From assembly GCA_947034895.1 (NCBI GenBank), contig OX344763.1:436501-500500 (forward strand): a DNA stretch of 64,000 nucleotides, read 5' to 3'. Positions 11,905-64,000 of this stretch are shown in pieces; position 1 is the stretch's first letter; each line of letters begins with the position of its first letter. This DNA is from Rhytidiadelphus loreus (lineage: Eukaryota; Streptophyta; Bryopsida; Hypnales; Hylocomiaceae). Position numbers and translations under genes: made by a program. A model generated the notes under the pieces. That model made no database searches. It had not been told where the DNA came from and worked only from the letters and a program-made list of their open reading frames with translations.

Positions 11905-12010
11905 CCTAGTTCCTCCTCATTTCTCGCCCTCTTTCAGTTGCTCCGCATCTGGCTGATAGTGAGAGAAAGTGTGGTGAGTTAGGGTTACCGCGATAGGAGA
12001 GGTGAGACGG

Positions 12011-13912
12011 ATGGCAGGGGTTAGTACTTGGTATATAGTACCGGCCCGGAAGATTAGTCCGGTATATCCGGAAGATCCGCTGCACTTGCGGCATTTAGAG
12101 GACGATTTGGTTGTTTTAGGTTGTGCAGGTCTGCTGAAGAAACCCTGGAACATCCAGAGTGACCAGGTGCTCCGGGAGTTGGCGGCAGGTGCTCCAAACC
12201 AGTACGACCAGACCGTACGTGGGCATCCGGACCAGTGGACGGAGGAGTTGTGGGCGGAAGTGTACGGGTTCTCCCAAACCGGAAGCGGATTCGCTGCCCG
12301 GACGGACCAGTACCACCAGCACAAGTTCGTGAACCCACCACACGCAAAGGAGGGCTACGCGATCAAGGACTGCCGGGACGAGAGACATAGGCGGCTGCTC
12401 CGGTTTCTGCTACTGATCCTGTACCCGGATAAGAGTTCCCGGGTTACGGTAACCATGGCCAACACGATCTTCGGGGCGTTTCAGGACTGGGTCGTGAACT
12501 GGGGCCGGATCGTGGCGAGCGTGGTGGGGCGCTGCACCGGGAACTTGGCGAAGAACAAGCCGAACCCGCTCAGCACGTACTTGCTCCACCTGTACCAGCA
12601 CCGGGAACTGTTGACGGAAGACGAGGCGACGGATTACGAGACCGGGCTCATCATGCTCCAATGCAACTGCTCTGACGACGAGGAGCAGGACACGCAAGAG
12701 TCTGAGGATGAGGAGGAAGAAGCCAAGCCGGAAGTCAAGCCGGAGATCAAGGAAGAGAAGCCGGAACCGGAACCGAAGCAGATACAGAGGGAAAAGGAGG
12801 AACGGGAGCAGGCATCGGGAAGCAAAAGACGGAAGTCTACACTTCCGTCTTCCAGAGGTAAATTCCCGGGTCCCTTTCTCATCCAGGATAAACAGGAGTG
12901 GGAAGGACCCCGCTTCTTCGAGTGCGGAGAAGAGTGGATCCGGACCGCGAAGGATTACCACGACAGGCTCACGGAGATCGTACTCCGGTCCGCGGAAGTG
13001 GTGAAGTGCGAACCGGACAACCTAGTGGACGCGCTGAAGGCGTTACCGGCCGAGTCGGAATGGAACAAGATGAGGACGGAAATCCGGAACCTGAAGACGG
13101 AACGGGACGCGCTCAAGGGGAAGTTGATCTGGACGGAAGAAGAACTGCACCAGTCTCAAGGGGTGACGCAGAAGGCATACCAAGCGTTCCAGACCTTCCA
13201 GAAATGGATGGTCAGTCCGGCGGATCTCTACCACAAGGCGGCGCTGTATGACGAGATGCAGAAGACGTCCGCGGCCCTCACCAACACGAAGATAGTCCGG
13301 GTGATGGTGGAGATGTCCGGAAGGATGGAGGCATCGTTGAAGGAGTTCCGGTCCATGATGACGAACATGGATCCGAACAAGCCACTCGACTTCGGGGGAT
13401 TTCCGGAAGTTCCGGATGTCATCGCAACTCCGGCAACTCAACCTCCCATCTCGCCCATCAAACGCACAGGTCAGTTTGGGTCACTGATCCACATTGTCAC
13501 TCAAGGGGGGCCTTCATCCGGATTTCTGGGGCAGGATATGCCGGTCCGGAGCAGTTTGGATGCCCGGATCGACCTTGTCCAGAATCCGGCACGGACGCAT
13601 CCGGAGCAGTTCGAGGATATCGAACCACCTCCACCGATGCCCTTACCTACACCGGATCCCATCGAGATATCGGAGGAGGCGGAAGCAGAGGAACCGGAAG
13701 CAGAAGAAACAGAAGTGGTGGAAGATCCGAAGTCGTTGGAGAAGGCGGACCGGTCTCTCGTCCATACGGACGAGACGGATTCTGACAGTCCTCCGGTCCG
13801 GAAGACGTCGATCATCACCCGGGCGTCCCTCCGTACACCCCAAGGCAAGACTAGCATCCGGGGGCAGTTAGGATTTGACAGTAGTTCGAAGAAACAGCGG
13901 AAGGGAAAGTAG
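12011..13912 (+). CDS. Intronless GC-rich ORF, 633 aa, unknown, possibly retroelement gag-like
   Basis: I do not recognise a named family. The first ATG is at 12011 (MAGVSTWYIVPARK). Residues about 1-215 look globular and rich in aromatic residues. Residues about 216-285 are acidic and Glu/Pro/Lys-rich, followed by the basic KRRKS. Residues about 350-400 are a likely coiled coil (repeated E/K/R/L pattern around NLKTERDALKGKL). The C-terminal third is Pro/Glu-rich and ends in a basic tail (KKQRKGK). The ORF is much richer in GC than its surroundings, has no introns and has a TATA box just upstream. That fits a retroelement structural ORF or a transferred or young gene, but no reverse transcriptase, protease or long terminal repeats could be seen beside it. 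The open frame over 1.9 kb in repeat-rich DNA argues for recent function. Confidence 0.6.
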   Translation: MAGVSTWYIVPARKISPVYPEDPLHLRHLEDDLVVLGCAGLLKKPWNIQSDQVLRELAAGAPNQYDQTVRGHPDQWTEELWAEVYGFSQTGSGFAARTDQYHQHKFVNPPHAKEGYAIKDCRDERHRRLLRFLLLILYPDKSSRVTVTMANTIFGAFQDWVVNWGRIVASVVGRCTGNLAKNKPNPLSTYLLHLYQHRELLTEDEATDYETGLIMLQCNCSDDEEQDTQESEDEEEEAKPEVKPEIKEEKPEPEPKQIQREKEEREQASGSKRRKSTLPSSRGKFPGPFLIQDKQEWEGPRFFECGEEWIRTAKDYHDRLTEIVLRSAEVVKCEPDNLVDALKALPAESEWNKMRTEIRNLKTERDALKGKLIWTEEELHQSQGVTQKAYQAFQTFQKWMVSPADLYHKAALYDEMQKTSAALTNTKIVRVMVEMSGRMEASLKEFRSMMTNMDPNKPLDFGGFPEVPDVIATPATQPPISPIKRTGQFGSLIHIVTQGGPSSGFLGQDMPVRSSLDARIDLVQNPARTHPEQFEDIEPPPPMPLPTPDPIEISEEAEAEEPEAEETEVVEDPKSLEKADRSLVHTDETDSDSPPVRKTSIITRASLRTPQGKTSIRGQLGFDSSSKKQRKGK

Positions 13913-39077: not shown

Positions 39078-39087
39078 ACATTGTAGG
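39078..39087. repeat. Target-site duplication of MULE-1, left
   Basis: ACATTGTAGG, identical to 55681-55690. Confidence 0.93.
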
Positions 39088-39178
39088 CAACGACGCTAGC
39101 GTGCGAGCTTGGAGCGTGCGAGCTTGGAGCGGGGAGCTTGTGAGCTGCGAGCGTGAAGCTTGTGAGCTTGGAGCCTTA
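39088..39178 (+). repeat. MULE-1 left terminal inverted repeat
   Basis: GC-rich end made of GAGC-containing repeats (GCGTGCGAGCTTGGA twice, then GAGCGGGGAGC, GTGAGCTGCGAGCGTGA and so on). Pairs with 55632-55680 at the outer roughly 30 bp with substitutions; the right MULE-2 end (31350-31403, reversed) is closer to it. Confidence 0.85.
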
Positions 39179-40205
39179 AAAAAAATTAAATCAACATTTT
39201 TACAAATATAATTTTTTTTTGGAAGAAAATTTTTGAAGTTCAAAAAAACTTTCTATTTTTAGTAAATTTTAGGACCCATAACCGCTCCCCCTATGACCGT
39301 GTATTTATAGAGGGTTTGTATCTAAATTCAAAATTTCTATATTCTGTGTAAAATATTTAAACCTATGTTTTCAGTTGAACAATTTCAGTTGTCCCAATAC
39401 AATTCGAATAGGTACCCACTTACAATTTCTCTAATAAATATACTATAATATATTAAGCAAATTTACTTACAAAAATTGATGTCGGTACATATATCCTTGC
39501 CTCTACTATTGCTACTGTACATGATCAATCACTCTAAACCCAATATAGAGATTTTGGCCATTAGTATATTTTATAGCCTCACGGGATTTTAACTGAGGTC
39601 ACTACATTGAAGGTTCACTGACCTTTCTCAAATATGCTCCACCTTTAAGGAAAGGCCTATATTTTTGGAAAAAAATATAGAAATGTACAAAGGCTTCTCC
39701 CCCTCCCCCGAATGGAAATAATGTGGAAACCAATGTGGAAAAGAAAATGATAAATATATAATGAGTAAGCAATGGAAATGGTTCAAAGATTATTAACCAA
39801 ATCCCCCCCCCCAAAAAAAAAAACGGTGAAGGAAAAAAAATAATAAACAATGAAAAGAAAAGGAAATTGGAAAAAACAATTTCATTTACCAAAATAAAAA
39901 AATGAAAACAAAAAAAGAATTAAAAAAAGGATCATAATGAGCTCACATAGAAATCAAAGGTACAGGCTGCTGAACATTAATGAATATAACATTCATAGGT
40001 CCACTGTTACATTTAGGCTTTCATTTTAGAGCTTAGCCATTCTTAGCTTCATTCTCTAAAACGATTTACTAATGACGGACACTCATATATTCTAAGAATG
40101 CATAAATTTCTTGAAATACATCCATGTCAAATGATTAGTGAATGGTACTAAATGTCATTTCATTTGTACCAAATGAAATACACATAACTATGTGGACACA
40201 ATTAC
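39179..40205. other. MULE-1 left subterminal region, no gene
   Basis: AT-rich, including A-rich runs at 39815-39925 and a poly-C/poly-A junction near 39805. It probably holds the 3' end of the transposase transcript. Confidence 0.5.
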
Positions 40206-43200
40206 CTATGGAATTGTAATGATCCCTGCTTTAACTAGAAGAAGCTTCAATTCATTGAAGCTATAACTTGGTGCATGAATGAATTTGTCCTCATCCATGT
40301 TCATCTTGCAAAAGTAGCGGAACAAGTAGTACAAGTGTTTGCAATTCACGTACTGTTGGCGACCGCCAACAGATGAAACAGCCATGCTTATAAAGTCTGG
40401 GCAAGTGCACGACGGATACATACCCATTGTAATTCGGTACACATTTCGGTTATGCACTGTCCCGGTCTCCAATGACACAATTGCACCTAGCCCCGGAAAT
40501 GGCAACAATGTTACCCCAAGTATTTCTCCTTTAACATTTCCAGCACTCTCCCACTTATTCCGTTGTTCTATAGTTGGTGCATTTGTGATTCGCCGTATTG
40601 TGCGATTGTTCCGGACCGTTGGATACATATGACCATCAGGTGGAGGTGGTTGGTCATACAATACGCTCTTGAATATGTTGGATATATTGAAGAGTCGACG
40701 AGGAGATAAGATAGGGCGCTCTTGAAGTCGAAAGCCAGCATGCTGCAGTAATAATGTCTCCTCCCGAGTTAGATGAGTTCCAGTTAAAACAGGCCATTCC
40801 TCTGGTACCTCAGGCCAATCTATTACCCACTTGCGCTTAGTTCCTTTGACACATCGTTCAATGTCATCTGCACAAAACCAAAAATCTGCTAGCACCTCAC
40901 GTTTAGTGCCGTAATCTTCTTTTTTCCCGCGATAGGTGGGAGCAGGTGTCCCCTTTTGTTCTTTCGAAATTCTTGCAGTGCACCTTATATTCGACCCCCG
41001 TTGTTGAGCATGACATTTTGCGTTCGATTTCTGATTGATCCTTGCAATGTGCCACTTTGAAGTGTCACAATCACTTTCTAAAGCAACTGTCACATGTGAA
41101 GAAGTGTTCCCTTCAAGTTGTTTACTGCTGTCCCCACAAGAGTCAGAAAATGCCGTTGTAGACCGCGTTCTCACACGAGGTTGGGAAAAATTCAATTTAT
41201 CAGGTCTATGTGAATCTCCTGCATCGCCAATAGGGACGTCCAACTTCCTCTTTGTACTTCCAAATATTTCTTCTCCTTCCAAATGGGGTATGCGAGTTCC
41301 AACACCTTCCGATCCCGGTAAAGTATTCAAAGCCTCTACGATTTTTTTAGGATCTCCACTACGTCTTGCAGCTCTCAGCTTCAACTCTCCTTTTGATGGA
41401 CCACATCCAGATGCATGTCCCTTCAAGTAAGCACGATAGTTTGTCATTTGCATCCATGCACGGATGCTGTCATCGCAAGTGGCGTCAAATAAATTGTTTC
41501 CTCGGTTCCCAGACATTTGAAGCCACTTGTTATGAACGGTTTCTGATAAGTTGCACGAAGGCATGTCCGCCATCTCGTCCAAACTCAAACCCTACAAATG
41601 CAATATAATATACTTCATGGGTCTCACATTGAATAGAACATGATACAGTCCACTGCATTTTGACTATTACAGAATAAAATGCAATGTATAGGTCACATGA
41701 AGTCAAGGTCAATCTATAGAAATTCAAGATCACCTTATATTAAACCTTCTGAAACAACCATTACAAGAAAATTCAACTCCACGTTCAGACATCCTAACCA
41801 TTTAGAATGACAATTTCTATATTTTTTTCCTTCTACATAAACCAAAAATGGGGGTACTGAGTGGGGACCCCAAAACCTTAGTCGGGTCCGACTGAGGTAT
41901 TTGGGTTGCTTCACAGTACCCCCATTTCCGGTTTAAGGGTTAAAAAAAAAAAAAAAAAAAAATCAGGTTAATCTAAAATTCTCCTCTTAATCCAGAATTG
42001 CAACCAAAAAAATTCAAATAAAATTTAAACATAGTTTTCCGAATGTCGCAAAGCATACTAAATCTCAAATGGGAGTTGAGCTTACCATTTGCATGAAGCC
42101 TCCCCATTGTCTATACCGGAAATGCCAAAAGGCAAGCCAATGGTCTAAGTGATGAAGTGCATCTTCAGTGGTAGCTCCTGATGATAACCACCATGACCGA
42201 ATTGCAAGATACTTTGTCTCTGCGTCCCCCATACTCTTTGCATCTTTGTATTGTTTACATAGTACATTGTGTTGTTGTTGGAATGCTTCCTTGATATACT
42301 TCTGTGTGTGCTTCTGAAGTGAAGTACTCCAATGCAACAAGCAAGTCCTCTCGCGATTTTCCATTTTTTGATTTGGAAAACCACTACCATAAATGATACG
42401 AACTGCATTCCAATTGGCCATAGCACTATCTGCCATGAACCCCTTGAAGTTTGGATATTCTACTCCATGTCGTGACATGACTGCATTCAAGCATTTCCAA
42501 AAAAGCACTTGTACCTCAGTATCTTCCGATTGCATATCGCATGTTGCAATTGTCATGACTTTCTTGTAATCGGAATCGTACATGTGGCAAGCCATTGTGG
42601 TCCACTCCTTCACACGCTTGACGTGGTCAAACATCATCCAAGCATTTTCCAGATTCCCTCCGAGTTGCATGCGCTTCACCAGGTCCACTCCACTTCCAGG
42701 TCCTTCAGTGAGCATCTTGAAAATGTACACCTTCTCCTTCCCTTGGCCTAGGAATACGCTCTCATGAATGAACTCAAATTTTGACTCCTTCATGGTCATA
42801 ATGTTGTCGATCACGCCTCCACGGTTGTTAGAGCGAAAGGAAGATATCACATTATGGATGTTCGGACTACTCAAATACTCAAACCTATCCATAACCTCTT
42901 CCAGTTCATGTCCTTTCAACATCTCTTTCTCTCCTTCACCGTTGTGAAACAAATACGTTGTTAAGAAATCTTTGCTAGCGGAGAGAGCAATTGCCGAGTT
43001 TGTTGCGGTTGGTGTTTTTGCCACTTGCTCTGCTATGAGTCCACAAATCTTTTCTGTAGAATCTCTATACATACCTTTTGCTATTGGGTGAGAATGATCT
43101 CCAATATGAATAGCGGCCCTAGTCATTTTCGGATTCTCACTATAGCAGTAGTAAATTCTAGCATCACATGTCTGCAAGCACGTAGGTGTCAATTTGCAGA

Positions 43201-44242
43201 GCTTGCAAACTAACGTACAATCTTTAGGAGCACTGTCCCCTTCTACAAATGGGAAGGTCGTGTAACCAGTCCACTCTGTTTCATTGCGTTTTGAAGCCCT
43301 CTTCAAGTAATCACACTCTGGATTTACACAAGCAAGATGACCAGCGCAGTATGATTTACGGAACTTCAGGTTGTTAGAGTTGTGAATGTTCGTGGTCAAT
43401 ACCTTGCACCATGGATGACCGTCATAACGCTTGTCCATCCCTTCCAAATTCCTAGCTGCTGATGAAGATGAAGCCCCTCGACATGGAGGCAATTCGAATA
43501 TGACATCTCCATTGAACACTGGTGGAAGGAATTGCACTCGATGGTGGTTAATGGCATTCAAATCCATTGTTGACAATTCGTTTCTAGACCGATGCATGCC
43601 ACTTAGTCTCCTCAAAGAATCCATAATACTTACTCTATCAACTAGACTTGGATACAATGGAGGACGGGACAACAACGATGTTGCAGGACTAATTGATGGG
43701 GTGCCAGAAAGTGAATGAACAACATGCTTCTCGTTTTGGTCCTTCTCTACAAACCGTGGTTTCTTATGTAGAGTAAGATCAGGTGACTCTCCTTCCGATT
43801 CGCTAGACAACTCAATGATGGGGTGTAATTGCTCAACCTTTACCGCACCCAAAATTGTAGGTCGAGAAGGGACTGCCAAAACTTGACGAGGAGGGCTACA
43901 CAGAACAGCATGGTTGACATATGGCATATTAACTGTCGAATTATCAGATTGGCGACTTAGAATCTCAGTTGATGCGGCTATCATGGAAAGAGGAAGACCA
44001 TAAGCTCTGTAGTTTCCTGAAGCAAGGTACCAACAATGGCCTCCCTCTTCTACGGACTTCACAACAGGAATAGACTCTTGGTGCTCACCGGATTTTGACT
44101 TCCTCTCTTCTTCAACATAGATGGAAGACTCAACAAATCTGAACCGTACATGAAGCAAATGACTTAGTACTCTAGCAAATCCTCCCTCCTCAACTGGAAA
44201 CACAAGTGGTATCGTATGACCATCTACTCGAACACAAGCCAT
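40206..44242 (-). CDS. MULE transposase: WRKY-GCM1-like zinc region, DDE core, SWIM zinc finger (1180 aa)
   Basis: Exon 1 is 44242-42086 (719 codons, ends ATG before GTAAGC). Exon 2 is 41591-40206 (after TTTGTAG, phase 0). Residues about 268-386 hold a Cys/His-rich unit (CAGHLACVNPEC ... RAAIHIGDHSHP) like the WRKY-GCM1 zinc-chelating domains known from MULE transposases. Residues about 400-719 resemble the MULE catalytic core; candidate acidic residues lie in IATCDMQSED (about 569-574) and FMADSA (D605), followed by CLLHW. The end carries a SWIM finger, CTC then NCKH, at about 1114-1138. A Ser/Thr-rich, low-complexity linker of about 300 residues separates core and SWIM. Residues 134-152 hold VKVE and IIELSSESEGE, a SUMO-site and SUMO-interaction-like pair. 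Start at 44242 gives MACVRVDG; an in-frame ATG at 44257 adds five residues. It moves the element by cut-and-paste, by family knowledge. Confidence 0.88.
41839..41935. repeat. Hairpin-family repeat inside the transposase intron
   Basis: Ends AAACCAAAAATGGGGGTAC and GTACCCCCATTTCCGGTTT pair. The centre is AGTCGGGTCCGACT, an exact palindrome except at the middle. A poly-A run follows at 41942-41960. It lies wholly within the 494-bp intron. Confidence 0.88.
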
Positions 44243-44246
44243 GATG

Positions 44247-44270
44247 ATGAAATACACTCGTGTATTTCAT
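44247..44270. promoter_or_regulatory. 24-bp palindrome just upstream of the transposase start
   Basis: Arms ATGAAATACAC and GTGTATTTCAT are perfect complements around a 2-bp centre. It is 4 bp from the transposase ATG at 44242 and overlaps the alternative ATG at 44257. It may be a binding site for a dimeric protein, but that is inference. Confidence 0.5.
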
Positions 44271-44893
44271 GAAACTCAAGAAGCCGATACTTAGATTGAA
44301 GTGGGGGAGTGACTGAACTTAGTTAAGTACTACATCATGTATGCATATACATCCATTCAAAATAAACCAGAGAATTTCCATAAATGGAGGATTCTATATC
44401 ATGCACTATGTCTAAGAGGGGCTACCAAAGAAGCCGCCAAAAATTAAATTCCCTACCACTATTATAAAGCATGGCATTCAATGCATTTAGGCGGCTCTAG
44501 CATATACCTTCCACCAAGGGACATGTAGTAGTTGGGTTAACATTTATTTCCCATAAATAGGTACATAGATCATGGCTAAAGTAGCCACACTCCAACTTTA
44601 TTCCCGCGATTTTTAAAGGTCACGTTCACAAGCATTTTGGTGGCTCTGGCAAGGACCTTTATAGTGAATGCAATAAATTGATCTGACATAGTTATACTTA
44701 TTATGAAAGATGCCTCCACTTTTTCACAACAATCTATGAATACTTATTCTGAAAGTTAAGTTTACATTGCCAAGTGGGAGGACAGCTCTTTAAATGAAAT
44801 GTTAGCTATAATTACTTCTACATTCTTAGGGCGGCGCGTGAAGTTGGTATGACTTTTAAATTTTGAGGGCGGCGTGTCAAAGGAATGTAATCA
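44271..44893. promoter_or_regulatory. Divergent promoter region of MULE-1
   Basis: The two transcription units face away from each other from here. A repeated GGGCGGCG motif (about 44829 and 44867) and TATA-like AT stretches are present, but no single TATA box is decisive. The recurring phrase GGCGGCTCTAGC / GGTGGCTCTGGC at 44490 and 44640 is a small direct repeat. Confidence 0.4.
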
Positions 44894-45136
44894 ATGAGGG
44901 GATGCCACTACTATGCTTCTGAGTATAAGTACTCTCCACTTCTCCATGGAAGAGACACTCGTATTCTTGTTTTTGGAAACAACGTCTGCTTTCGAGAGGC
45001 TCTTCCATCCATTCCTTTCATGTATGAGTCCATAGATAGTCATAGTGTTACATTTGTTATTCCTAAGCTGAAAAGCAAACGCAAGAGGCGTAGTTGTTTG
45101 TATTTCTCATCTCCAAAAGCGCTTAGGATATCTAGA

Positions 45137-48100
45137 ATGAATCGTCCGAAGAGAGTGGCGTCCAAGATTGCTCAATCAAATCCAGGGAACCTGCAGAAAG
45201 TCCTTCGCTTTGAAGCTGGAGGTAGCGGTGTGGAAGAGAATGACGAAGTGCAGAGCTTGGACTCACAGCAAGCAATGTCGGAGGACCCCAGAGATGAGAC
45301 GGTACTACAAGTAAGCACATTCAAATTCCTTTTCCTTCCTTCAATAACCATTGAATCTATAGGATTGATTACGTGGAAAAGTGAATTCTTCCTTATACAA
45401 TGACTTCAAATGCAAGTTTCATTGTAGTAGCTGTATAGGAGCATGTGAACATTACTTGCATGTGAACTATGTATAATGAAGAGGGTTCAATATTAAATAC
45501 TACATATGTGGGATATGGGTTAAATGTTCTGTGAATACCTTTCAGGTTGTCAACAATCATCATGTTATGTGCATTACATGTTAGCAAGTTCATTTCATTT
45601 GTAACTTGTACATTGGTAATGAGTGAGAAGGATTCATTTGTACTTGTCTAAAATCCTTTTATGTTCAAGAATAGTTTAATATGAGAAGGATTCTCTATAA
45701 GATACAAATTTTGAAAATTCTTATGTAGGTTTCATCTATTAATATAATGATCAATATATTTCAAATAATGGTCAATCTTTTTCATTTGAATATCAATGTA
45801 TTTCAATGAATGGAAATTCGTTTAAAAAAATGTTATATATGTTATTCTATTGAAGTTAAAAAATTTACGAATATATTTGAATTACATTAGGAACAAATAT
45901 CTTCGTTTGACTTGTACTTTAGCCTGGAGCGGTACGACGTCTACTTCCTGGATGTTCGGCACATTTAGATCCTTCATTCAGTCTCATTCTTGCATAGATG
46001 AAAGTCATCCTAATATTTGTTGATATTTTTTTTAGTTGTTGTCCTATCCATTGGATGGATTTGGTGTTATTAGAATATTTAAATTCATAAAATTACAAAT
46101 GTAGAAATATGTCAACTGGTATACTTGCATGGACTTTAGATAAAAACAGAGAGTGCAAAAAAGAGTTGAAATATGTAAAGGTCATTGAAATTTAGAAACC
46201 AGCACAAGAAGATAACGTTTTTTCAAATTTAATCAAACTCGTTTCACTGTGAAATAATAATATTTCACTTGTAATTGAACTTGGAAGAAATTCTGAAATA
46301 ATTTATTCAAAATTTATAGAAAATAATTAGTGACAGTATTAGTAGATCTAACCGTATGGATAGAAATTTAATATCAAAATCTACTGCTTTTGATTTTGAA
46401 AACCGATTCCAAAATATTCTTCGTAACATTAGTGTATAATGATTTTACTAAAAAAGTTAAAAATGACCATTTCCTTTTTAAACATTCCGAAGATATTAAT
46501 ATCCTTACTTCAAGCTATATTTATGGTTTCCAACAGACAATTTTAGCCGACTGGCTGTTTGAAGGACAACCGGATAGTTACGCCCTTTTTTAGCCTACAT
46601 GATTAATGTTTATGGGCAAGTGACTGATAAAATGGGGCGCATGATCTTTCGAACTTCCTTTACAAAAGCTGCCAAAACTTTAGATCATTCCATCTAAATC
46701 AGGAACTGCCAGTGCATGCGGAAGAATACCTTTCCGTGAATGAAATTCATGCACCTGCCGCCAAGCCTGCGGTTTCCGGTGAACCACACGTTCAAATTCC
46801 TCACGCTATCTAGTTTTTGCGAAGGTATAACAAGTATAATATATAACTAAACCACTAACTTAAACAATCATCTCTACCTGTATTCTTGCAGCGCCAGTCA
46901 CGCCAGGTAGTTTTGGGGAGGGTTGGCAGCATGAGACACACGAGGGCGCGTTCCAGGGAAGAAGAGAGGTCTTCAGCCGAAGACGAAACAACAAATCCAG
47001 AACCTGCGCACACTCCAGCTGAGGTAAGAATCTTGGTTTCAACTTTCATTCATTTATTTCTATGCTTCAGTTGTGGTTTCATTGCCACAAAAATGTAATA
47101 AGAGATGTTTGAATTAGTTTGCTTACTGAACTTATTTCTATCTCTGAAATCGTCCATTATAATTTCTGGAGATGATCACTGATCCTCTGATTGTCATTTC
47201 GGAGATGCTTGATGGTCATTCTCATCTTCCTGTAGGTCATTCCGGAGCGCATGCCGAAGTTCACAAAACCAGAAACACTAACCCGCATGTCGACGTTTAG
47301 TTCAGTGAATCTTTGCTGATCCTTTGATTTTCATTTCGTAGATGCTGGATGGTCATTCTCATCTTCCTGTAGGTCATTCCAGAGCGCATGCCGAAGTTCA
47401 CAAATCCAAAAACAATAATCCGCATGTAGACGTGGAGTTCAGTCAATCTTCGCTGATCCTTTGGTTTTCATTTCGTAGATGCTGGATGCTCGTTCTCATC
47501 TTCCTGTAGGTCATTCCGGAGCGCATGCCGAAGTTCAAAAAATCAGAAACAGTAACCCGCATGTGGACGTGGAGTTCAGTTATTCTTCACTGATCCTTTG
47601 ATTGTCATTTCGGAGATGCTCGATGGTCGTTCTCATCTTCCTGTAGGTCATTCCGGAGCGCATGCCGAAGTTCAAAAAAACAAAAATCATTACCCGCATG
47701 TCGACAAGGAGATCAGTCAATCTGATTCCAGAGATAATGCGACCCGTAGAACTTGATTCAGAATCTCGTCACGCATCCATATCCCGATGCTCACATCTAT
47801 GTGATCGGTAGTGTTTTTGTTGGCTGTAGTCGATTTCAAGTTGTTGTTGTCGATTGAAATTCTGAACTCCGTCTGACTCCGAACTGACTCCAAACTAGTC
47901 TGGGGGACGTCGGTTTGTTGTCTGACCTGACCTCGAACTAGTCAAATGGACCTAGTCGTGCTAACTGAAGATCTGAGTGGTGCTAACCGAAGATCTTAGT
48001 CCTGCTAACCGAAGATTTGTAGTTGCAGGCGTAGCATCCACAAATGATCCGTGGATTTGAAGCTCCGACCTGGAGTTGTAACCTGCGTTTTCCAAGCTCT

Positions 48101-49906
48101 AATCTACTATTCTGTAGTTGCACGCTCAGTTGTGTAGTTGCAGGCGTAGCATCCACCTCTGATCCGCGGAGGAATCAACAAGAAATGTAAAAAAAATGCG
48201 AAAACTAGTTGTTCAATTTGAGGGGGAGACTGGAAGTTAGAGTAACGGGAGGTACCCCCCAAACCCAAGTCGGACCCGACTGTGGTTTCGGGGGTACCTC
48301 ACGGTACCCCAACTTCCAGTCTCAGACTGATCTAAGAGAATTTTTTTTTTTTAATCTTGCTTGAAAAGTCTGGAATTGACAGACAAAACAGATTATTATA
48401 CGAGAATTTGTCACCATTGCTTGTAGGAGACTGAAAGTTGGGGTACCGCAAGGTACCCCCCAAACACCAGTCGGACCCGACTGTGGTTTTGGGGGTACCT
48501 CGCGGTACCCCAACTTCTAGTCTCCATATGGTAGGTATTCTTTAAATAATATTTTTTTTAATATTTTTTTTTGTCGTCGTTGTCTACCCGATACTATCTC
48601 GCACGAGTTGCCGTTAATGGCTGCCCTTGTGTCGAGTTTTTTTTTCTGCCGGTGGCTTCTCGACATTTTTATGAGACCGGAAGTTGGGGTACCGCAAGGT
48701 ACCCCCCAAACACCAGTCGGACCCGACTATGGTTTTGGGGGTACCTCACGGTACCCCAACTTCCGGTCTCCATACGGTAGGTATTGATTAGAATACTTGT
48801 GTTTTAAAAAAAAAAATTGCCAATGATGTCTGTTCGATCTTTCTCGCCCGATTTGCCGATAATGGCTGCCCTCGTGTCGAGTTTTTTTTTGCCTGTGGAT
48901 TCTCGACATTCTTATGAGACCGGAAGTTGGGGTACCTTGCGGTACCCTCCAAATACCAGTCGGACCCGACTATGGTTTTGGGGGTACCTCGCAGTACCCC
49001 AACTTCCGGTCTCCATACGGTAGGTATTGATTAAATTACTGGTTTTTTAAAAAAAAAAATTGCGTATGTTGCATGTCTGATCTTTCTCGCCAGACTAACC
49101 GATAATGGCTGCCAACATGTCGAGATTATTTTTTGCTGATGCTTTTTCGACATTTGTATGAGACTGGAAATTGGGGTACCTCGCGGTACCCCAACTTCCG
49201 GTCTCCATATGCCAGGAGTTTATGGAATGACCTTTTTTTTGGCCAATGTCGTCTTTTCGAAGCTGTGTCGCCATGAGTTATTTTTTGCTGATGCTTTGTC
49301 GACCATTTGATTAGACACGTTATGTGTAATTTCAATGTTGTGAAAACTTGATTAGTGTAATTTGAATGTAAAATTTAATTAGTATAACTTGATTACTTAA
49401 ACTTGAATGTAATATGTATGGTAATAACGTGTACGTCTTGGCATGTACAGATGGAACACACCAATGTTCCTACTCACCATGCCTCTTCATCGGCTATACC
49501 CACTACACATGTAGAGGTTGAAGTGGCTGAAGAATCGGTACCTCAGACTCCAAGACCTGCAATTGTGGAAGTGTGCAGTGAATCCCAAGCACAAGAAGAG
49601 ACAAATGTGGTGAGTTTGGGAGATATTTTGGATGCATGTGATCGTGCAGTCAATCAATTGGAGGTGCCCATGCAAAGTCGTATTAGTGAATCCAAGAAAA
49701 GGAAACGCAGGATGCCACTTTTCTCGGATGAAAGCTCAGAGACTGAGTATAGCTCAAAGTCAGATTGCACCTCTGAGGCAGAGTCCTCAGACTCAATTTC
49801 AAGTCCCTGGGGTCCTAAATCATGTCAATGTTCTTGTCTTCGACCAGTACGTAGAAACAGGGTGGTGATTCTACACCAATGTGAAGATTTAGACGATAGT
49901 ACATAG
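45137..49906 (+). CDS. N-terminal exons upstream of the ParB-MTase gene (same gene or short companion gene)
   Basis: Exons with clean phase-0 junctions: 45137-45310 (or from ATG 44894), 46892-47023, and one starting 49451. The first begins MNRPKRVASKIAQSN and is basic then acidic; the others are Ser/Glu-rich and disordered. The third exon has two readings. It can splice at a GTGAGT donor after 49609 and join an acceptor at 50153, in phase with the ParB exon. Or it can run to TAG at 49906, giving a nuclear-looking tail (KKRKRRMP then an acidic Ser-rich stretch). The second reading gives a companion protein of about 254 residues from the 45137 start; the first gives a 1261-residue ParB-MTase. 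The composition of the tail resembles the C terminus of the ParB-MTase protein (KPKKRRP then Ser/Glu). No domain is recognised. Only transcripts can decide. Confidence 0.5.
47178..47725. repeat. 137-bp tandem repeat, four copies
   Basis: Units start at about 47178, 47316, 47452 and 47589, each with CTGATCCTTTGATTGTCATTT and GGTCATTCCGGAGCGCATGC. It lies in the long intron between exons ending 47023 and starting 49451. The copies differ by a few substitutions, indicating fairly recent amplification. Confidence 0.9.
47726..48225. other. Intron sequence with small repeats
   Basis: A 24-28 bp motif GCTAACCGAAGATCT recurs three times at about 47958-48020. TGTAGTTGCAGGCGTAGCAT occurs twice, at about 48018 and 48135. 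Confidence 0.6.
48226..49210. repeat. Array of long hairpins, about 245-bp period
   Basis: Hairpins at 48226-48323, 48427-48524, 48673-48770, 48916-49013 and a short one at 49160-49204. From the second on, starts are spaced 243-246 bp. Each full unit runs from GAGAC(C/T)GGAAGTTGGGGTACC to GGTACCCCAACTTCCGGTCTC with a CAGTCGGACCCGACTG-like centre. The fifth lacks the middle, leaving a tight perfect stem GGGGTACC-TCGC-GGTACCCC. Spacers share TAATGGCTGCC and a TCGACATT motif. All within the same intron. Confidence 0.92.
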
Positions 49907-50135
49907 ATTGAATGTAAATGATTTCTTTATACATTGAGAGTTTGGAGTTATATCTTAGAAATAATAGTCATATCTTGGTATGATATTCCATTTATAATAT
50001 GAATGATACAATTACATTTTGTGTCCAAAGTTAAAATCTCTTGAAATTTAACATGTGTTACCCTCAGTAGAAATTTTATTTTATTGTATTTTGTTATATT
50101 TCATGTAATTGTTCAAAGATGTTTGACAACTCCAA

Positions 50136-53100
50136 ATGTACTTGCAAATTGAGGAATCTCCAATACTTTTGTCACAAGAGGAAGAACACCAGGATACTCC
50201 AGGAGACAATGAGACACAACAACCCCAGATTGAAGGTGAAGTGGAAGAAGATTTTCAGATGGAAGACATTGACGATGCTGAGGAAGAGAGAGAATTACTA
50301 GAAGACGAGCTTCGGCGGTTGCAGAAGGTGGACTCCGTTGCAACCATTTCTAGTTTGAGAATAAAGCCAGAGAAGCACTCACGTCTACGAATTCCGCTTT
50401 GCAGGCTTGTGCCAATGTCCATGGTCAGGCCAACACTCTCTTCGGACTTGATAAAACTTGAACAAGAGTTTGTTCATGGTTACCGTGAAGGGGCTACGGT
50501 GTTCTATGTCTCTACAACGAATGAGGCTAGAGAAAGTTCACATTTCACAGTGGACGAGGTGAACAAGTGGGATCCGTTTTGGAAGCAAGCAAACGATGAT
50601 TTCAACATGTTTGTGGAATCAAAGCATGAGCTGAAATTCATGAAGAACTTGAAGTTCTTCGTGTGCGACGGAAATCACCGTCGGATTTCTTGGATGAGTC
50701 ACATTAATAGACGCTACCCTGCTGACCCGAGTTGGCACATCTCCGTGGATTGCATCATTCTTGAAACTAAAGGAAGAATCGAGTTGGTCATGCAGGTGAT
50801 GCATGACATTAACAAGTAAGTTACTCTATTTTTTTTGACGTTCACTTCAAATTACTTTTTCACGTTTTGAAGTTTGCAAATGCATTTTCATATTACTTTC
50901 TGATGATAAATTTGTTGCCTTGTTTTCAGGTCAACAGAGGATTCTCACGTGAAGACCAATCTAGTGCATACACTTTATCGTGTGCAGAAGTATGGGCTTC
51001 TTCCGTTGGAGAAGTTCATGGAGATGCTAAGACCTTCAGAAAGGAAGCGTTGTAGTGTTCAAATTGGAAGGAAGTCTTGGTACTCTATGCCTACTGATGT
51101 TTTCACAGCTTTCAACTTTCGGGTGAGTTATATAATTTATATTTGAAAACATTTATATATATTTTTGGATTATTAATGTATTGTATATTTGAGTGAGCGT
51201 TTGTATTGAGATTCTGTGGAATTTTGCAGCACGAGATTTCTCAAGCGGCAGATATTGCTGCACGGAAATACAATGACCTTACTCCACTGGAAGAGAAAAC
51301 CGATCAAGGAATTGCAAATGCCATGAGGGTTGGTGCAAGAGAGAAGTCATCAAAGTTGTACATCAAGATGGTAAAGTTGCTAGCTGTGGCGAACCCGACT
51401 CTCGGTTCTGAATTCCTACAAGAGGTATGTATTTCTAGAATGACACGCTGTTGTGATTTTAATTGACTAGTTTGTAATGTAATGTTTTAAATATACAATG
51501 CATTTCTTCAGGTGGAGAAGCATTGGACCATGAATGAGGTTCAAGAGATGACACTTGAGAAGTTGCAAATGATTACAACATGCAATACAACACCTGCCCA
51601 GAAATTGAAGTATATGAAGTGGTGGAACTCATCCAATCCATCTCGGGAAGCTCGGAAATTTCCATTGCGGCCTGTGTCTGAAGAGAAATTATTGCCCTTC
51701 CTCCACAAGTGTGTGTGGTGGTCTGGGGTAAGTTGTTATTAGTATTTTTAAACATTTTGATGTGTATTTGAATATTATTTTTTATCATGTATATGAATTG
51801 AATTGTGATTATGTTTACCATTTTTACATGAATACATTTCTTCTTTTATAGATTGAAGAAAGTGCTCAAGAATACTTCGACAACGTGGTGAGTAAGGACA
51901 ACCTCCAAATCAACATGGAGGTTCCACTGGAACCGGAGTCACTTGTACAGTACATAGAAGGTTGGAGAAGGAAAATCTGGGAGCAAGGTTTTGGCCCATT
52001 TCTGAAGGGGGCCAACTCTTTCAAGAAGTCTGATTTGTTTTCTACGTATGATGGATCAGTGCAAGCCGTGCGGAGAGTTCTTTTCCGGTAAGTCTCTGAA
52101 TTTTTTTATTTTTTTAAACCATTACTTGATTTAATATTCCTAAACCATTAATGAAAAAATGTACAATCACCCGGAAATGGGTGTACTGTAAGGTATCTAG
52201 TAAACCTTGGTCGGATCGGATTGAGGTTTTTTAGTTACTTGCATTACCCCTACTTCTGGTTTCATGAAATTTAATTTAATTTTGACATATTTTTTATTTT
52301 CAGATTACAAATGTGATGCTTATGATTTGTGTTAGATTTGTGACATGGTTGAATAATAGGAACGTGTTTTCTTTTGTAATGTATTAAACATCGTCAGATA
52401 TTATGAATATATGAATTCACAAAGTATTGTTGGACTGAGTTTGTTGTTTTGGCAGGTACTTGAAACTTGAGCTAGTAGCAAAGAATGCTTTAGCACGAGG
52501 GAATCTTCCACCATTTCTTTCGTCGTGGCTGGATCGAAGTTCAGATGAGTGCATGTTCACGCAGACTCAACTTCGAACATTCACGACTGCAAATCTCAAC
52601 GGTGGAGGGTGGTACTTGGATTGCCAACTCACATTCACTCATCCGACGGAGGTGGGGCTCCGAAAGTCCTTTGATGGTCTTGGTGTTATTGACTTGGAAG
52701 TCCCCAAGTTTGCTGATCTCAATGATATACAGAAGAAAAGGGCCATTTCACGAAGGACAATTGCTGACAAGAAGAAAGAAAGCAAGGAACAAGAGATAAG
52801 GGCCAACAAGGAGAAAAAGGAAGCTGAACGTTTAGCAAAGTTGGCAGAAAAGGAGAAAGAGGCCGAGAAGGAGGGGAAGACAAAAGGCAAGGGCAAGAAG
52901 AAGGTTGAAGGTACAGACCAAGTTCCAGCGTCTTCAACGGTGGATCAGGGATCCCAAATGGAATCCGGATCACGCACTGGTATGAAGAGGAAGGCAGTTT
53001 TGAAAGAGCTCACAGAAGAAATGGTCACACAAGGGACACAAGTAATTGTCATTGGTGATGATGATGAAGTGAACTCTGAGGAGTTGATCCTCAACGTCTC

Positions 53101-54652
53101 CATCATGGACGTAATGGAGAATGAGGAAGAAGAAGGGAAGACATGCTTCAAAGAAGTCATGGACTTTTTGGACAAGGTAATTCTCTAGTTTTTCCGTTGT
53201 TGAATATTATGATTTTTCTATGAAATTGCATTATTGAAAAATGTATTAATTCTTGTCTGTTTGCACACCTCTATTTTGTAGTTCTCGGCTGGGAAGGTTC
53301 GGAAGTATGGTGGTAAAGTAATGCGACAGGCAGGAGTGGACCTAATTTTCTTTGACTGCCACGAGAATTTGCCAGTCCTCGGAGTGTCTTTCCCAAACAC
53401 TCATGTACCTACATGGAACGCCGACAAGGAGTACGAGATAATTCAAGAGGCTTTTCATTTTGCAGATAAATATTTGCAAGATGATGGTTGTTTTGTGGTG
53501 TTTCATTCGTGGAGTGCGGATGCGAAGGGCGTCATTGCTGGACTGTGTGAGGTATACCCGACAATGAAGAAGAAAGAGTGGTTGGGAATCAACCGTGTCC
53601 ACTTGACTTCGGCTATGGACCCTTCAAATACGGTATATTCTTTTGAGGATTTTTTAAATTTAGTGGCTATTTGCAACACCTAATATATTATTCATTTCTA
53701 ATGTTTTCTTGGTTGAATGCTAACAGATAATGAAATTTGGAGTCACCCTCTTGGTGAAAGACCTCGGCAAGGGAGTTAAATCGGAATTTGTTTTTCATCA
53801 AACAAATTCCATGAAAAAGGCCAAAGTCGATCTTCTACGAGATGACACACTCATCAACTATACTACAGAGGATACCATGCTTATGAATGAACGAGTACCT
53901 TGGCGTGGGCCTCGTGAGAAAGACGCGAGGTTTTTCCAGTTCCTCATTGAAGGGACAACAGTTGAAGGAGATGTAGTTCTGGACTGCACATCAGCTACTG
54001 GTTAGTTTTGAATCTCATTATTTTGAATGAGTTTTATATTTTACATCTAAATCATTCAGTGAATCAATTGTGTATTGTTTGTAACAGGTGCATCAATTAC
54101 AGCATGCCGTGGCACAGGCCGGCACATTGTGGCATTGGAGGAGGATAAAGACATTTTCAATGCCATACTATTGCCCATGCAAAAGAGTACTCCAGCCGTG
54201 GTGATTACAGAATCGGCAAAGGAAGCTACAGCATCTCAAGATCCAGATGCAATGGACATCGTAGTTCACAAATTTGCCCGGAAGACAAAATCTTGTAAGT
54301 AAGTTTTCATACATTTCTATTTCATATGCGTATGAACTATTAAATCATATATATTTCTTGATTTTAACATACTTTTATGTGTTTGTGTAGCCGTCAGAGG
54401 TTGATGATGGCAAATGGAACTCGGCAAAAAAGAAGGCTTGTTTTGAGTCCAAACAAGTCTTTTGATTTGCCAGTTTATGCAGAGCAGTTGGCATCGGCTT
54501 TCGTGGAGTTTGGTTCTTCTAAGCCAAAGAAGCGTAGACCTAATTATGCTTTGAATGTTTTAGAGTTTGTAGATGTTAGTGCATCTGAGGATAGAGAGAC
54601 TTCTGAGTCCTCTACCAACAACGATTCTGCGACCGAGTCTACTGCTACCTAG
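50136..54652 (+). CDS. ParB-like domain fused to DNA N4/N6-methyltransferase-like domain (1112 aa)
   Basis: Ten exons, all junctions in phase: 50136-50815, 50930-51122, 51230-51424, 51512-51727, 51852-52087, 52456-53176, 53282-53632, 53727-54000, 54088-54298, 54391-54652. Residues about 85-210 match the ParB/sulfiredoxin-like fold, with FFVCDGNHRRISWMSHI (DGNHRR 178-183). The middle is helical; residues about 598-658 are a Lys/Glu coiled region, then GMKRKAV (basic) and VIVIGDDDE (703-711, SUMO-interaction-like). Residues about 750-980 have the permuted order of beta-class DNA methyltransferases: motif IV position DLIFFDCHEN (D772), then EKDARFFQFLIEG, then motif I position VVLDCTSATGAS (about 948-958) and VALEED. 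Usual DPPY and DPFxGxGT are replaced, so SAM binding is possible but standard amino-methylation is doubtful. The C terminus has KPKKRRP. Exon 9 has overlapping donors 4 bp apart; only the second keeps frame. The start at 50136 is provisional. Confidence 0.85.
52170..52262. repeat. Hairpin-family repeat in intron 5 of the ParB-MTase gene
   Basis: Diverged unit with CCGGAAATGGGTGTACTG at one end, a TCGGATCGGA centre and TTACCCCTACTTCTGG at the other. It fits in the 368-bp intron between 52087 and 52456. Confidence 0.75.
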
Positions 54653-55118
54653 ACTCACGAGATTGACATATCTCGTAAGTTATTGTATTTTGTGTTGATT
54701 TTCATTATGAGTGGATTTGTGTGTTTTATGGCTACTTTTTGTCTTCATTTGTCTCACTTCAAAGTTTTAGTTTTTGTGATATTTGTTTGACTAAAAAAAA
54801 AGAAGTTGTTGCCCTAAGAATTTTGGAAAAAAATTGTAAGTGAACGTCATTTCTTCAAATGAACTCCCATGTATCCTAAATCCCAAATTTACAGGATTCA
54901 CGGTTCGAAGGCAATCATAAATTTTTCTCTAAACCAAAAAAATTTCCGAAGATTGAAGATTACAAAGATGAAACATGTAGCATTCTTGTTTAGAATTAAT
55001 ATATGGACATGAAAAAAGCTAGTGGTTGGTCATTGTATTCACCATAAACACCCCATATACCTTTTACTATAACATCATGTTCTTGGTCAAAAAATAAATA
55101 AAATTGAATTTGTTAAAA
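54653..55118. other. 3' flank of the ParB-MTase gene
   Basis: AT-rich, probably the 3' untranslated region and terminator. No further gene seen. Confidence 0.5.
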
Positions 55119-55339
55119 TATCAAAATGAGGGGTAGCACCAAGTACTCCAAAAACCTCAGTCGGACCAGTCTTGGTTCTTCAAGGTTCCATCCAACCCCC
55201 CTGTTTTGAGTAAAAAAAAAAGAAATTCCTCATTTTTTTCTTGAATACCAAAAATGGGGGTGCCACCAGGTACTCTCAAAACCCAAGTTGGACCCGACTG
55301 GGGTTCTAGAGGTACCAATCAGACCCCCCATTTCTGGTA
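55119..55339. repeat. Two hairpin-family repeats 3' of the ParB-MTase gene
   Basis: Units at about 55119-55210 and 55246-55339; the second has TACCAAAAATGGGGGTGCCA and CCCCCCATTTCTGGTA ends with AGTTGGACCCGACTGGGG in the centre. Confidence 0.8.
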
Positions 55340-55631
55340 TTTGGAAAGAAAACAGAAAACAAATTTGGGAATGTCATTTTTCAATTGAAGAGCATGAAGT
55401 TTTATTACTGTTTGTGATTTGAACACTACAAACATGGCACATCCCCAAGATTGCTTACAAGTCAAATACTGTAGATGTAAACAAGCAATTTCTTGTTTCC
55501 TTTTTTTTATGTCTAGTCTTCAGTTCTACATGTTTAACATTTCTTAATATTAATAACTTCAAATATCTTGAAATTTGTAATGTAAAAAATCCACGGTCAT
55601 AGGTCCCAACAAGTTTATAGTACAAAAAAAA

Positions 55632-55680
55632 ATTCCCGCTCACAGGCTCACGCTCACAGGCTCACACGCTAGCAACCCTG
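55632..55680 (-). repeat. MULE-1 right terminal inverted repeat
   Basis: In reverse complement it begins CAGGGTTGCTAGCGTGTGAG and continues as GAGC-containing repeats before an A/T run and the CCTATGACCGTG-type motif. It matches the left end of MULE-2 (25775-25820) closely, including GAGCGGGAATTTTTTTT. Confidence 0.9.
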
Positions 55681-55690
55681 ACATTGTAGG
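55681..55690. repeat. Target-site duplication of MULE-1, right
   Basis: ACATTGTAGG, a perfect copy of 39078-39087. Confidence 0.93.
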
Positions 55691-62272: not shown

Positions 62273-64000
62273 ATGGCAACCGCTCATACAAACACTGAAA
62301 ACTGGCTTCGCGGCAGGTGCTGGATCACGCTTTCGGGCCCACAACGGCTCCAGGGACTGCACAGTCGGGTTTCTTCAGGGAGGTTACGATCGACACGAGA
62401 AAGTTCGATGTCAATTACGGGAGTCGAGAAGAGTTCATGAGGTTGCTCGACGAGTGTTTGACGAAAGCGTGGATGAACATTCGCATCCCGAATAACCCCA
62501 GCAGGAAGTTCTGGAAGTGCATCCATTGCCAGAAGGAGAGCTTCAGAAACAAGATGCGGCTTAATAAACATCGTTGGGATTCAGAGTGTCCTGCCGTGCG
62601 AGATGAGACGGGGAACCGCCGTCGCATGCTGCCCTACCCGGACTAGGGGAAGGGCCAGGGGAAGACATCGAAGATGTACCGGGCTGGGAAGGCAGACGAG
62701 GTCGAGGCGAAGATTTGTGGAGCCCCCACTCGAGGGAAAAAGGGCAGACAAATGGCAGTTGGGACGGAAGGGAGTGAGGACACAGAGGACATGGGAAGAC
62801 AACATAAGCGCTTAAAAAAGAGGGAAGACACTCCTGACACAGAGGAAGACAGCGAGCACTCGGAAGAGGAGGACGATAGCGACACTGAAACAAAACGGCG
62901 GACGGGGAAGAAGAGGGCCAGGGAAGACGTGGTGCTTCTAGATGACGACGACTTCAGAGTGGAGACAAGGCAGACGCGCACACCGCTAGCAGGCGTGGCG
63001 GAAACACCTATGGGAATGAAAACTCGCACAAGCACAAGGGGGACCGTCCGCGCACTTCCTGCGCCGGCCAACGTCGCCAGCAGTGTTGAAAAGGCAGCAC
63101 ACGGTAGTGCTTCGGACGCACCCAGAGTGGACCCTATGTGGGAGAAACATGGAGACCTTCCGGCGATGGTGACACAACTCCAAGACATCTGCGGAAGTTC
63201 TTCGGATGCCAACCTCGACCGGCCCGTGACACGTGCCCGAAGTGGGATTGTTTCACCGGCTGAATCTGTGCAGGAGAAGCTGCATCAGCTGAAAACGAAT
63301 GCAGCCAGACTTGGTATAGCAAGGCCGGTGAAAGATTGGTCATGAGTTGTTGAACCCGCTCCTAAATCGGAGTCGAGCACGGAACCGAAGAAAGACTGGT
63401 CCCGAGTTGTCGGTGCCGCTCCAAGGTTACAGAAGGGGCCGACACCGAAGAAAGACTGGTCTCGAGTTGTCGGCGCCCATCCAAATCCAGAGCCGTGGCC
63501 GCAACCGAAGAAAGACTGGTCACGAGTTGTCGGCGCCCATCCAAATCCAGACCCGTGGCCTGAACCGAAGGGGTTCAGAACTCCTAGGTCACCTGCACTA
63601 CGCCGAAACACTACGCAGGTTGTTGCGTCCCCCGACAGCGGAGAAGAAATGGGAGTGACGGAGTTGCACTTAGAGGACGATTTCGAGACCACGGATCCAC
63701 GCGAGGCGTTGCAGACGTTGGGGGGAGTCTATTCAACGCCCCAACCAAGCCCGGATGAAGCCGACGATGGATACGCTGAACACCTCGATGCGATTCTCTC
63801 GCAAGAGCCGCATCCTGAAGCTGCGGAGACGAAGACCCGAGACCGGCCCCTGAAACCAGTTCGGGCAGATACTACGACGCCACAAAGCACTCCTGCAAAC
63901 AAGAAAGCAGTTGGGGTATGCACGTTGTCTAAAGGGAGAAAACAGCTTTCTACAAACACTGCAGGTGTCCCACCCACGCAGACGCCGACGGATATAGTGA
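62273..64000 (+). pseudogene. Interrupted GC-rich ORF with C2HC-like zinc finger and 20-aa repeats, runs off the window
   Basis: Not recognised. An ATG at 62273 (MATAHTNTENWL) opens a frame, but the better frame starts near 62317 and runs to the window edge with only two stops: TAG 62644-62646 and TGA 63343-63345. It first shows CIHCQKES...KHRWDSEC, a C-x2-C-x13-H-x5-C pattern. Then comes a basic and acidic region with VVLLDDDDF (62929-62955), then four 60-bp repeats starting 63328, 63388, 63448 and 63508 coding KDWSRVVG-type units. The first repeat has TGA where the others have CGA, so it is a C-to-T nonsense change. The region after it keeps the frame open for 218 codons. It is best read as a recently broken gene or retroelement structural ORF; stop readthrough is possible but unproven. 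Confidence 0.6.

Follow-up and report, generated by a model that had tools for sequence, protein, structure and literature searches.

The moss Rhytidiadelphus loreus harbours a large, high-copy DNA transposon in which a gene of prokaryotic type, joining a ParB-like region to a DNA methyltransferase (MTase)-like fold (ParB-MTase), is part of the element's own machinery. The copy described here occupies positions 39088-55680 (16.6 kb) of a 64,000-nucleotide stretch of contig OX344763.1 (assembly GCA_947034895.1, positions 436,501 to 500,500 of the forward strand), called the window below, and both its edges are bordered by an exact 10-bp target duplication. The ParB-MTase gene and a divergently transcribed transposase gene lie between the same ends, these ends recur in the genome with different duplications, and purifying selection acts on the two genes alike. 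The anatomy of the element and the element-encoded status of the ParB-MTase gene are practically certain. The whole is best read as a Mutator-like DNA transposon whose gene content makes it autonomous and which needs both genes (probability about 0.6); the ParB-MTase gene is kept as a functioning component of this plant transposon and is not the cargo that the first-pass annotation of this DNA had called it.

The 10-bp repeat, ACATTGTAGG, is located at 39078-39087 and 55681-55690 and has no third occurrence on either strand of the window; in a shuffle control, two or more occurrences anywhere were found in 3 of 100 shuffles. Inside it lie matching inverted ends, CAACGACGCTAGCGTGCGAGC on the left and, as the reverse complement, CAGGGTTGCTAGCGTGTGAGC on the right, which form terminal inverted repeats of roughly 20-40 bp (39088-39115 on the plus and 55653-55680 on the minus strand, the inner limits being approximate). 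The outermost 7 bp of the two ends are not identical. Both share the core GCTAGCGTG, at 39095 in the left repeat, and next to it comes in each case a short array of tandem units that contain GAGC, of 15 bp in 5.2 copies on the left (39098-39174, plus strand) and of 14 bp on the right (55637-55665, minus strand). The 16.6-kb unit with its perfect duplication and matching ends, as first annotated, is thereby confirmed.

Other copies were sought in the 407-Mb assembly (489 contigs), where 39 occurrences of a 24-mer from the left end were counted and none of the same 24-mer read backwards, which served as a control. Twenty of the other 38 ends were read about 10 kb inward, seven of those to about 17.2 kb, which together with the window gives 21 ends examined. 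Among them both ends could be fixed for nine complete elements. Their 10-bp duplications are exact and all different, so a chance duplication at the edges is rejected. The right ends were sought as a repeat of the flank (at most one mismatch) beside a GCTAGC-like core, and the presence of a duplication is therefore partly a product of the way in which the ends were chosen; its constant 10-bp length, the exact match and the tip CA[AG]GGTTGCTAG-like common to the right ends are independent of the search criterion. GAGC is present six to nine times in the first 110 bp of all nine. Bounded elements with both genes measure 16.6, 17.0, 17.2, and 14.4 kb, and the five short ones 5.2-7.7 kb; for the other twelve ends, a right end was not found within the sequence covered. 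Counting by the exact 24-mer gives too low a family size, because a copy designated L042 has a variant tip, while its exon 7 of the ParB-MTase gene is 97% and its left 1.4 kb 96% identical to the window.

Of the other ends, seven were followed for about 17.2 kb, and six of these have the ParB-MTase gene, through the last exon in copies c16, c24, c21, c22, and c33, and through exon 7 in c32, where the sequence ended. Among the 13 ends read over 10 kb only, remnants of the gene were found in six (L015, L018, L019, L020, L029, and L030) and no match in seven (L017, L025, L026, L027, L028, L031, and L034). In intact copies the gene starts only after about 10-13 kb, and in L025 exon 7 is located at 14.2 kb, beyond the 10-kb read. 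The first-pass annotation had named ends without any trace of the gene as what would speak against it; such ends do occur, among them c23, with none in 17.2 kb, but for the seven read over 10 kb an intact gene would start further in. The short derivatives (the six copies with remnants listed above) retain pieces of the ParB region and of the C-terminal part of the second gene, while the middle of this gene and most or all of the transposase gene give no match. The five bounded short copies are internally deleted derivatives, since all five keep ParB-MTase remnants.

The association of the gene with the ends was also counted over the whole genome. Exon 7 has at least 150 matches (the best 150 of 1,103 candidates), with identity from 100 down to 59%, and 125 of the 150 contain no stop. 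A match on the expected strand lies 13.1-18.2 kb inward from 20 of the 39 left ends, that of the window included, compared with none on the opposite strand and none on the wrong side; random placement (2,000 draws, with the lengths of contigs C4 and C5 estimated) gave 0.078 on average and never more than 2. One transposon thus carries both genes, as originally described, and the genome-wide search for the termini proposed at that stage has yielded 39 left ends and copies with both genes. These counts bear on an arrangement of two neighbouring or nested elements, in which the ends would be those of a transposase unit and the ParB-MTase gene would have been inserted separately. The 5.9 kb and the repeats that separate the starts of the two genes would suit it, whereas the order, strand, and similar spacing of the genes are constant at independent insertion sites with distinct duplications; such a composite is refuted for the family by the independent copies and keeps a very small probability.

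The ParB-MTase gene is modelled with ten exons (50136-54652, plus strand, divergent from the transposase gene), open over 1,112 codons, with all nine introns of the GT-AG type. Its start lies 5.9 kb from that of the transposase gene, with tandem repeats in the gap. Exon 1 (50136-50815) codes for the ParB-like region IPLCR...DGNHR and is followed by exons 2 (50930-51122), 3 (51230-51424), 4 (51512-51727), and 5 (51852-52087), by exon 6 (52456-53176) coding for a charged linker, and by the MTase part: exon 7 (53282-53632), with DCHENL replacing DPPY at the position of motif IV, exon 8 (53727-54000), with the start of motif I, LDCTSAT, exon 9 (54088-54298), with the remainder of motif I, RHIVALEED, and exon 10 (54391-54652), coding for a basic C-terminal tail and the stop. 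The lengths of exons 2-10 (193, 195, 216, 236, 721, 351, 274, 211, and 262) are kept in c16, c24, c21, and c32, save for insertions in exons 3 and 5 of c21, the last three exons of c32 lying outside the sequence taken. Intron identity falls to 57-59% in c21 and c32. The divergent ten-exon gene of the first-pass annotation is hence upheld, with its frame open, its introns canonical, and most exon sizes recurring in diverged copies.

The ratio of nonsynonymous to synonymous divergence (dN/dS), counted by the Nei-Gojobori method for ten pairs of five copies, is 0.064-0.201 for ParB-MTase and 0.097-0.174 for the transposase. The dS of ParB-MTase is 0.08-0.16 among the window, c16, and c24 (three pairs) and 0.84-1.58 in pairs with c21 or c32, mostly near saturation, so that these ratios are rough; the gene is preserved in copies at a dS of 1.3-1.5 from the window. 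A constraint like that of the transposase means that the protein does something the element needs, and the gene is part of the transposon's own machinery. Individual copies are damaged. Two stops interrupt the transposase gene of c16, in which the donor of exon 4 is also altered. In c24, ParB-MTase exon 1 has gained a base, and AA is aligned at the acceptor of exon 6. Both genes of c21 contain stops, and this copy further has two long insertions, AT aligned at the exon-4 donor, and a D-to-N substitution at the second candidate catalytic D of the transposase. In c32 there is a stop in each gene and ParB-MTase exon 1 lacks one base, and in c22 the ParB part contains stops. The two genes of the window copy showed no such defect.

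Gene capture by Mutator-like elements is well established. The ParB-MTase gene could accordingly be passive cargo, a host or bacterial gene captured as in Pack-MULEs and playing no role in the transposon, and c23, which has a transposase gene without the ParB-MTase gene, would fit this. Passive cargo would hardly explain a transposase-like dN/dS of 0.06-0.20 across copies, exon 7 in register at 20 of the 39 ends, or preservation at such a dS from the window; it is rejected on the purifying selection acting on ParB-MTase across copies, and we consider it very improbable.

The C-terminal part of the protein is assigned to the fold of beta-class N6/N4 DNA methyltransferases, and the sequence comparisons support this. 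A profile built from three sequences matches DpnA with an expectation value (E) of 1.9e-7 and CcrM with 5.8e-7, and the window protein itself has a match to a methyltransferase family of PHROGs with E 9.2e-8. The Pfam model PF01555 scores 16 bits against the window protein, under the cut-off of 26.7, and lies above it in both full-length relatives, from Ceratodon and Diphasiastrum, described below. The catalytic residues are replaced: DC[HQP]E stands where DPPY would be expected in all seven copies read (DCHE in the window, c16, c24, c21, and c32, DCQE in c22, and DCPE in c33), and the canonical (D/N/S)PP(Y/F/W) is absent from all of them. Motif I is LDCT[SA][AS]TGAS, not LDPFxGxGTT, in the six copies readable there, with T[SA][AS]TG in place of the FxGxG that binds S-adenosylmethionine. 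With motif IV non-canonical in the Ceratodon and Diphasiastrum relatives too, the replacement is old, and it is retained in copies with a dS above 1; MTase activity has probably been lost or changed, and recent decay is not the preferred reading. The first-pass annotation proposed that the protein marks element DNA, which presumes an active methyltransferase; with the catalytic motif replaced in the seven copies read, this part of its proposal, as worded, is not supported.

Self-modification is the main rival to the reading favoured here. The protein would in that case methylate its own transposon, as a self-mark or a block to silencing, and be an N6-adenine or N4-cytosine methyltransferase that is active despite its non-canonical motif. 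The authors of PMC12477816, in passages of that paper, propose for proteins of this kind that they attach to the transposon encoding them and alter it epigenetically; the matches of the fold are to adenine methyltransferases, and the MTase region is about as constrained as the remaining protein. These points have to be set against DC[HQP]E in seven of seven copies, lacking the second-position proline and the aromatic residue, against motif I without F and the first G in six of six, and against the two relatives, Ceratodon (DTPF, with an altered motif I) and Diphasiastrum (DFPT), likewise non-canonical at motif IV. We consider an active enzyme unlikely.

The N-terminal region is ParB-like at the level of motifs. 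The blocks IPLCR and DGNHR are invariant among the aligned copies; DGNHR is found in five of five aligned sequences and in five genomic copies, whereas c22, with its stops, reads NGNHR. It agrees with the GxxR motif, Box II of the ParB-CTPase fold according to passages of PMC12704722. The assignment stays motif-level because no profile search recovers ParB. The earlier description of ParB joined to a methyltransferase-like fold therefore holds for the MTase fold and a GxxR-type motif and lacks a ParB profile match; more generally, the profile searches that it called for returned methyltransferase matches, but nothing for ParB, MULE, SWIM, or WRKY/GCM.

A probable role for ParB-MTase, as judged from the genes, is that of an accessory protein binding the element's own DNA, and the role favoured here is comparable to that of VANC in the VANDAL elements of Arabidopsis, to which it is unrelated in sequence. 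VANDAL elements belong to the Mutator superfamily. In both systems there is an extra protein and a set of quickly changing non-coding tandem repeats. VANC proteins bind fast-changing tandem repeats and remove silencing, as stated in parts of PMC5735166 and PMC10398659, and in the former their targets in VANDALs form tandem repeats and their domains are given as DUF1985 and DUF287. In the present family, tandem repeats occur between the genes in all seven long copies scanned, and the units differ; in the window they comprise a 137-bp unit in 4.0 copies (47179-47723) and a 243-bp unit in 3.1 copies (48427-49192), the latter containing palindromes of roughly 99 nucleotides. The VANDAL parallel and the transposase-like constraint together favour a self-recognition protein. 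Such a protein would bind the GAGC-rich terminal arrays, the changeable repeats between the genes, or both; its ParB-like domain may act as a nucleotide-gated DNA-loading module and its methyltransferase fold mainly as a module engaging DNA or bases, with no or altered catalysis, and the protein would then keep the element accessible or license the transposase. Anti-silencing, rather than another role, is a tentative choice made by analogy and stands somewhat below even odds.

Somewhat unlikely, on the genes as they stand, is a protein serving mainly transposition, as a co-factor of the transpososome or a chooser of target sites, and not anti-silencing. The short derivatives, with both ends and duplications of their own, have moved, so the machinery acts on the ends, and it is at the ends that the GAGC arrays are located; the transposase, however, has a conserved zinc-ligand-like region of its own that could bind them. 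The most specific version of self-recognition is that in land-plant Mutator-like transposons a phage-type ParB-methyltransferase was turned into a catalytically dead, nucleotide-gated clamp on the element's own repeat arrays, shielding or licensing it. This is a long shot; were it true, it would be a eukaryotic 'parS-like' self-recognition independent of DNA methylation, maintained by selection in a family whose gene copies number well over a hundred.

Several observations weigh against a self-recognition protein with a replaced catalytic motif that the element needs. c23, mentioned above, has the transposase gene and no ParB-MTase match in 17.2 kb. The tandem repeats between the genes were scored without a control, repeats are also present in the flanks of L029 and L030, and c21 has one short array only. 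Neither DUF1985 nor DUF287 gives a Pfam match in the window ParB-MTase protein. ParB itself (PF02195 or other) has no profile match in Pfam, PHROGs, or PDB, the sole PDB match of the ParB-like region being a ribosomal protein (E 0.013-0.026), and the AlphaFold model of the Ceratodon relative, with a mean predicted local distance difference test score (pLDDT) of 36, is unusable. As for the catalytic motifs, they were read in seven copies, as compared with the 150 exon-7 matches, and purifying selection on the MTase region is also compatible with an enzyme of unusual chemistry.

The carrier is classified as Mutator-like, an assignment supported by the duplication length (about 8-11 bp in the Mutator type; exactly 10 bp in nine of nine bounded elements), by the ends, and, more tentatively, by the predicted transposase core, and not by Pfam membership. 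The transposase gene (42086-44242 and 40206-41591, minus strand) consists of two exons and is open over 1,180 codons. Exon 1 (42086-44242, 719 amino acids) codes for a zinc-ligand region and a predicted RNase H-like core that includes D539 and D605, and exon 2 (40206-41591, 461 amino acids) for a candidate catalytic E (SETVHNKW) and a SWIM-like CxC...CxH; this third catalytic residue and the SWIM-like motif were assigned by eye. Copy c16 reads SEPVHN where the window reads SETVHN, with the candidate E kept. In a predicted model (mean pLDDT 66) the core is RNase H-like, two of its D residues being conserved, and the best PDB match is the ISCth4 transposase, with E 9.7e-4 but a weak TM-score of 0.14-0.25. 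ISCth4 belongs to the IS256 family, and IS256 elements are bacterial relatives of Mutator. Sixty proteins match the transposase core at 35-80% identity. The Pfam models MULE, SWIM, WRKY, and GCM give no match in the window transposase, and MULE and SWIM match none of 22 sequences (window exon 1 and 21 relatives), among which the only transposase-related Pfam name is a zinc finger in one sequence at E 0.76. Because of this, the names MULE, SWIM, WRKY, and GCM rest on motifs assigned by eye and a weak fold match; of the MULE/SWIM transposase annotated earlier, the open two-exon gene stands and membership in these Pfam families does not. One transposase relative, P0003, ends near the splice position of the window gene, with only about 20 residues beyond it, an end that would fit read-through of an intron at the same place.

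Genes of this kind are already known from algal transposons, and the word 'unusual', used of a eukaryotic version in the first-pass annotation, is too strong. Passages of PMC12477816 describe Sola1-1_Ec32 of Ectocarpus, a 21.5-kb DNA transposon with a 1,104-amino-acid protein combining ParB-like and N4/N6 DNA methyltransferase parts, transcribed opposite to the transposase, and cite similar ParB-methyltransferase proteins from transposons of green and red algae. It shares with the element described here a large size, a divergent ParB-like and methyltransferase gene, and a nearly equal protein length (1,104 and 1,112 amino acids), but it belongs to the Sola1 family of a brown alga, whereas the transposase here is Mutator-like; the likeness is one of description and not of compared sequences. 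DNMT-carrying retrotransposons of Symbiodinium and Klebsormidium provide a transposon-borne DNA methyltransferase under purifying selection, according to parts of PMC5890265. Those enzymes are C5-cytosine DNMTs, some of them shown to be active in the same parts of that source, in contrast to the DNA transposon, N4/N6-type fold, and replaced catalytic motif found here.

Fusions of ParB-CTPase with N6_N4_Mtase are frequent in phages and prophage regions, as reported in passages of PMC12704722. They have the same pair of domains in one protein and the GxxR Box II, but the protein described here is about 1,112 amino acids long, is encoded by a spliced gene of a nuclear transposon, and matches no ParB profile. 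Among the phage matches listed (20 of 99 and 20 of 149 records) only the MTase end is matched, a Pfam scan of four phage methyltransferases at E 0.01 detected no ParB domain, and scans of viral contigs found no relative of the transposase or ParB-MTase gene. A search of 5.8 billion proteins at E 0.001 found full-length relatives only in Ceratodon purpureus and Diphasiastrum complanatum. It covered sequences that have exact words in common with the query and are 0.55-1.75 times as long, so that exon-split genes (exon-sized open reading frames) and shorter prokaryotic fusions would escape it. The protein of the former, a moss (M758_1G295400), is 30% identical over 84% of the query, and that of the latter, a lycophyte (O6H91_08G053900), 23% over 46%. 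Both have the ParB-like motif and the PF01555 region; motif IV is DTPF in Ceratodon, with motif I altered, and DFPT in Diphasiastrum, whose protein differs in carrying a Myb domain at its N terminus and in a motif I that is close to canonical. The Diphasiastrum relative (P0002) falls into a 90% cluster with seven member sequences, which may be several copies or only several records.

As far as literature searches show, the Mutator-like carrier and the land-plant host are new, and so is the evidence from copies, with selection and a preserved replacement of the catalytic motif. The class known from algal transposons now includes a Mutator-like element, one exon of which has at least 150 matches in a single genome. 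Open frames, defined ends, deletion derivatives that have moved, and many diverged copies in one genome make the role directly testable, the candidates being self-methylation, anti-silencing, and a co-factor of transposition; the replaced catalytic motif yields a sharp prediction that would tell the published idea of self-modification apart from the role of a reader or clamp.

Other features of the window were recorded beside these. A scan with Rfam gave zero matches at gathering thresholds. Open reading frames at 49388-49906, 46892-47023, and 44891-45310, upstream of the ParB-MTase gene, code for acidic and basic low-complexity protein and may be additional 5' exons or a third gene. A near-palindrome of about 99 nucleotides, GAGACCGGAAGTTGGGGTACC...GGTACCCCAACTTCCGGTCTC, recurs in the element (48225-49013, 41837-41935, 55243-55341, and 52171-52230), within the internal array, in introns of the transposase and the ParB-MTase gene, and close to the right end, and resembles a small foldback element dispersed within the transposon family. 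Two blocks richer in G+C, 11978-13912 and 62647-63345 (2-kb means of 0.57 and 0.55), lie in the otherwise A+T-rich window; both contain long charged open reading frames that, by eye, are like the gag-type regions of retroelements.

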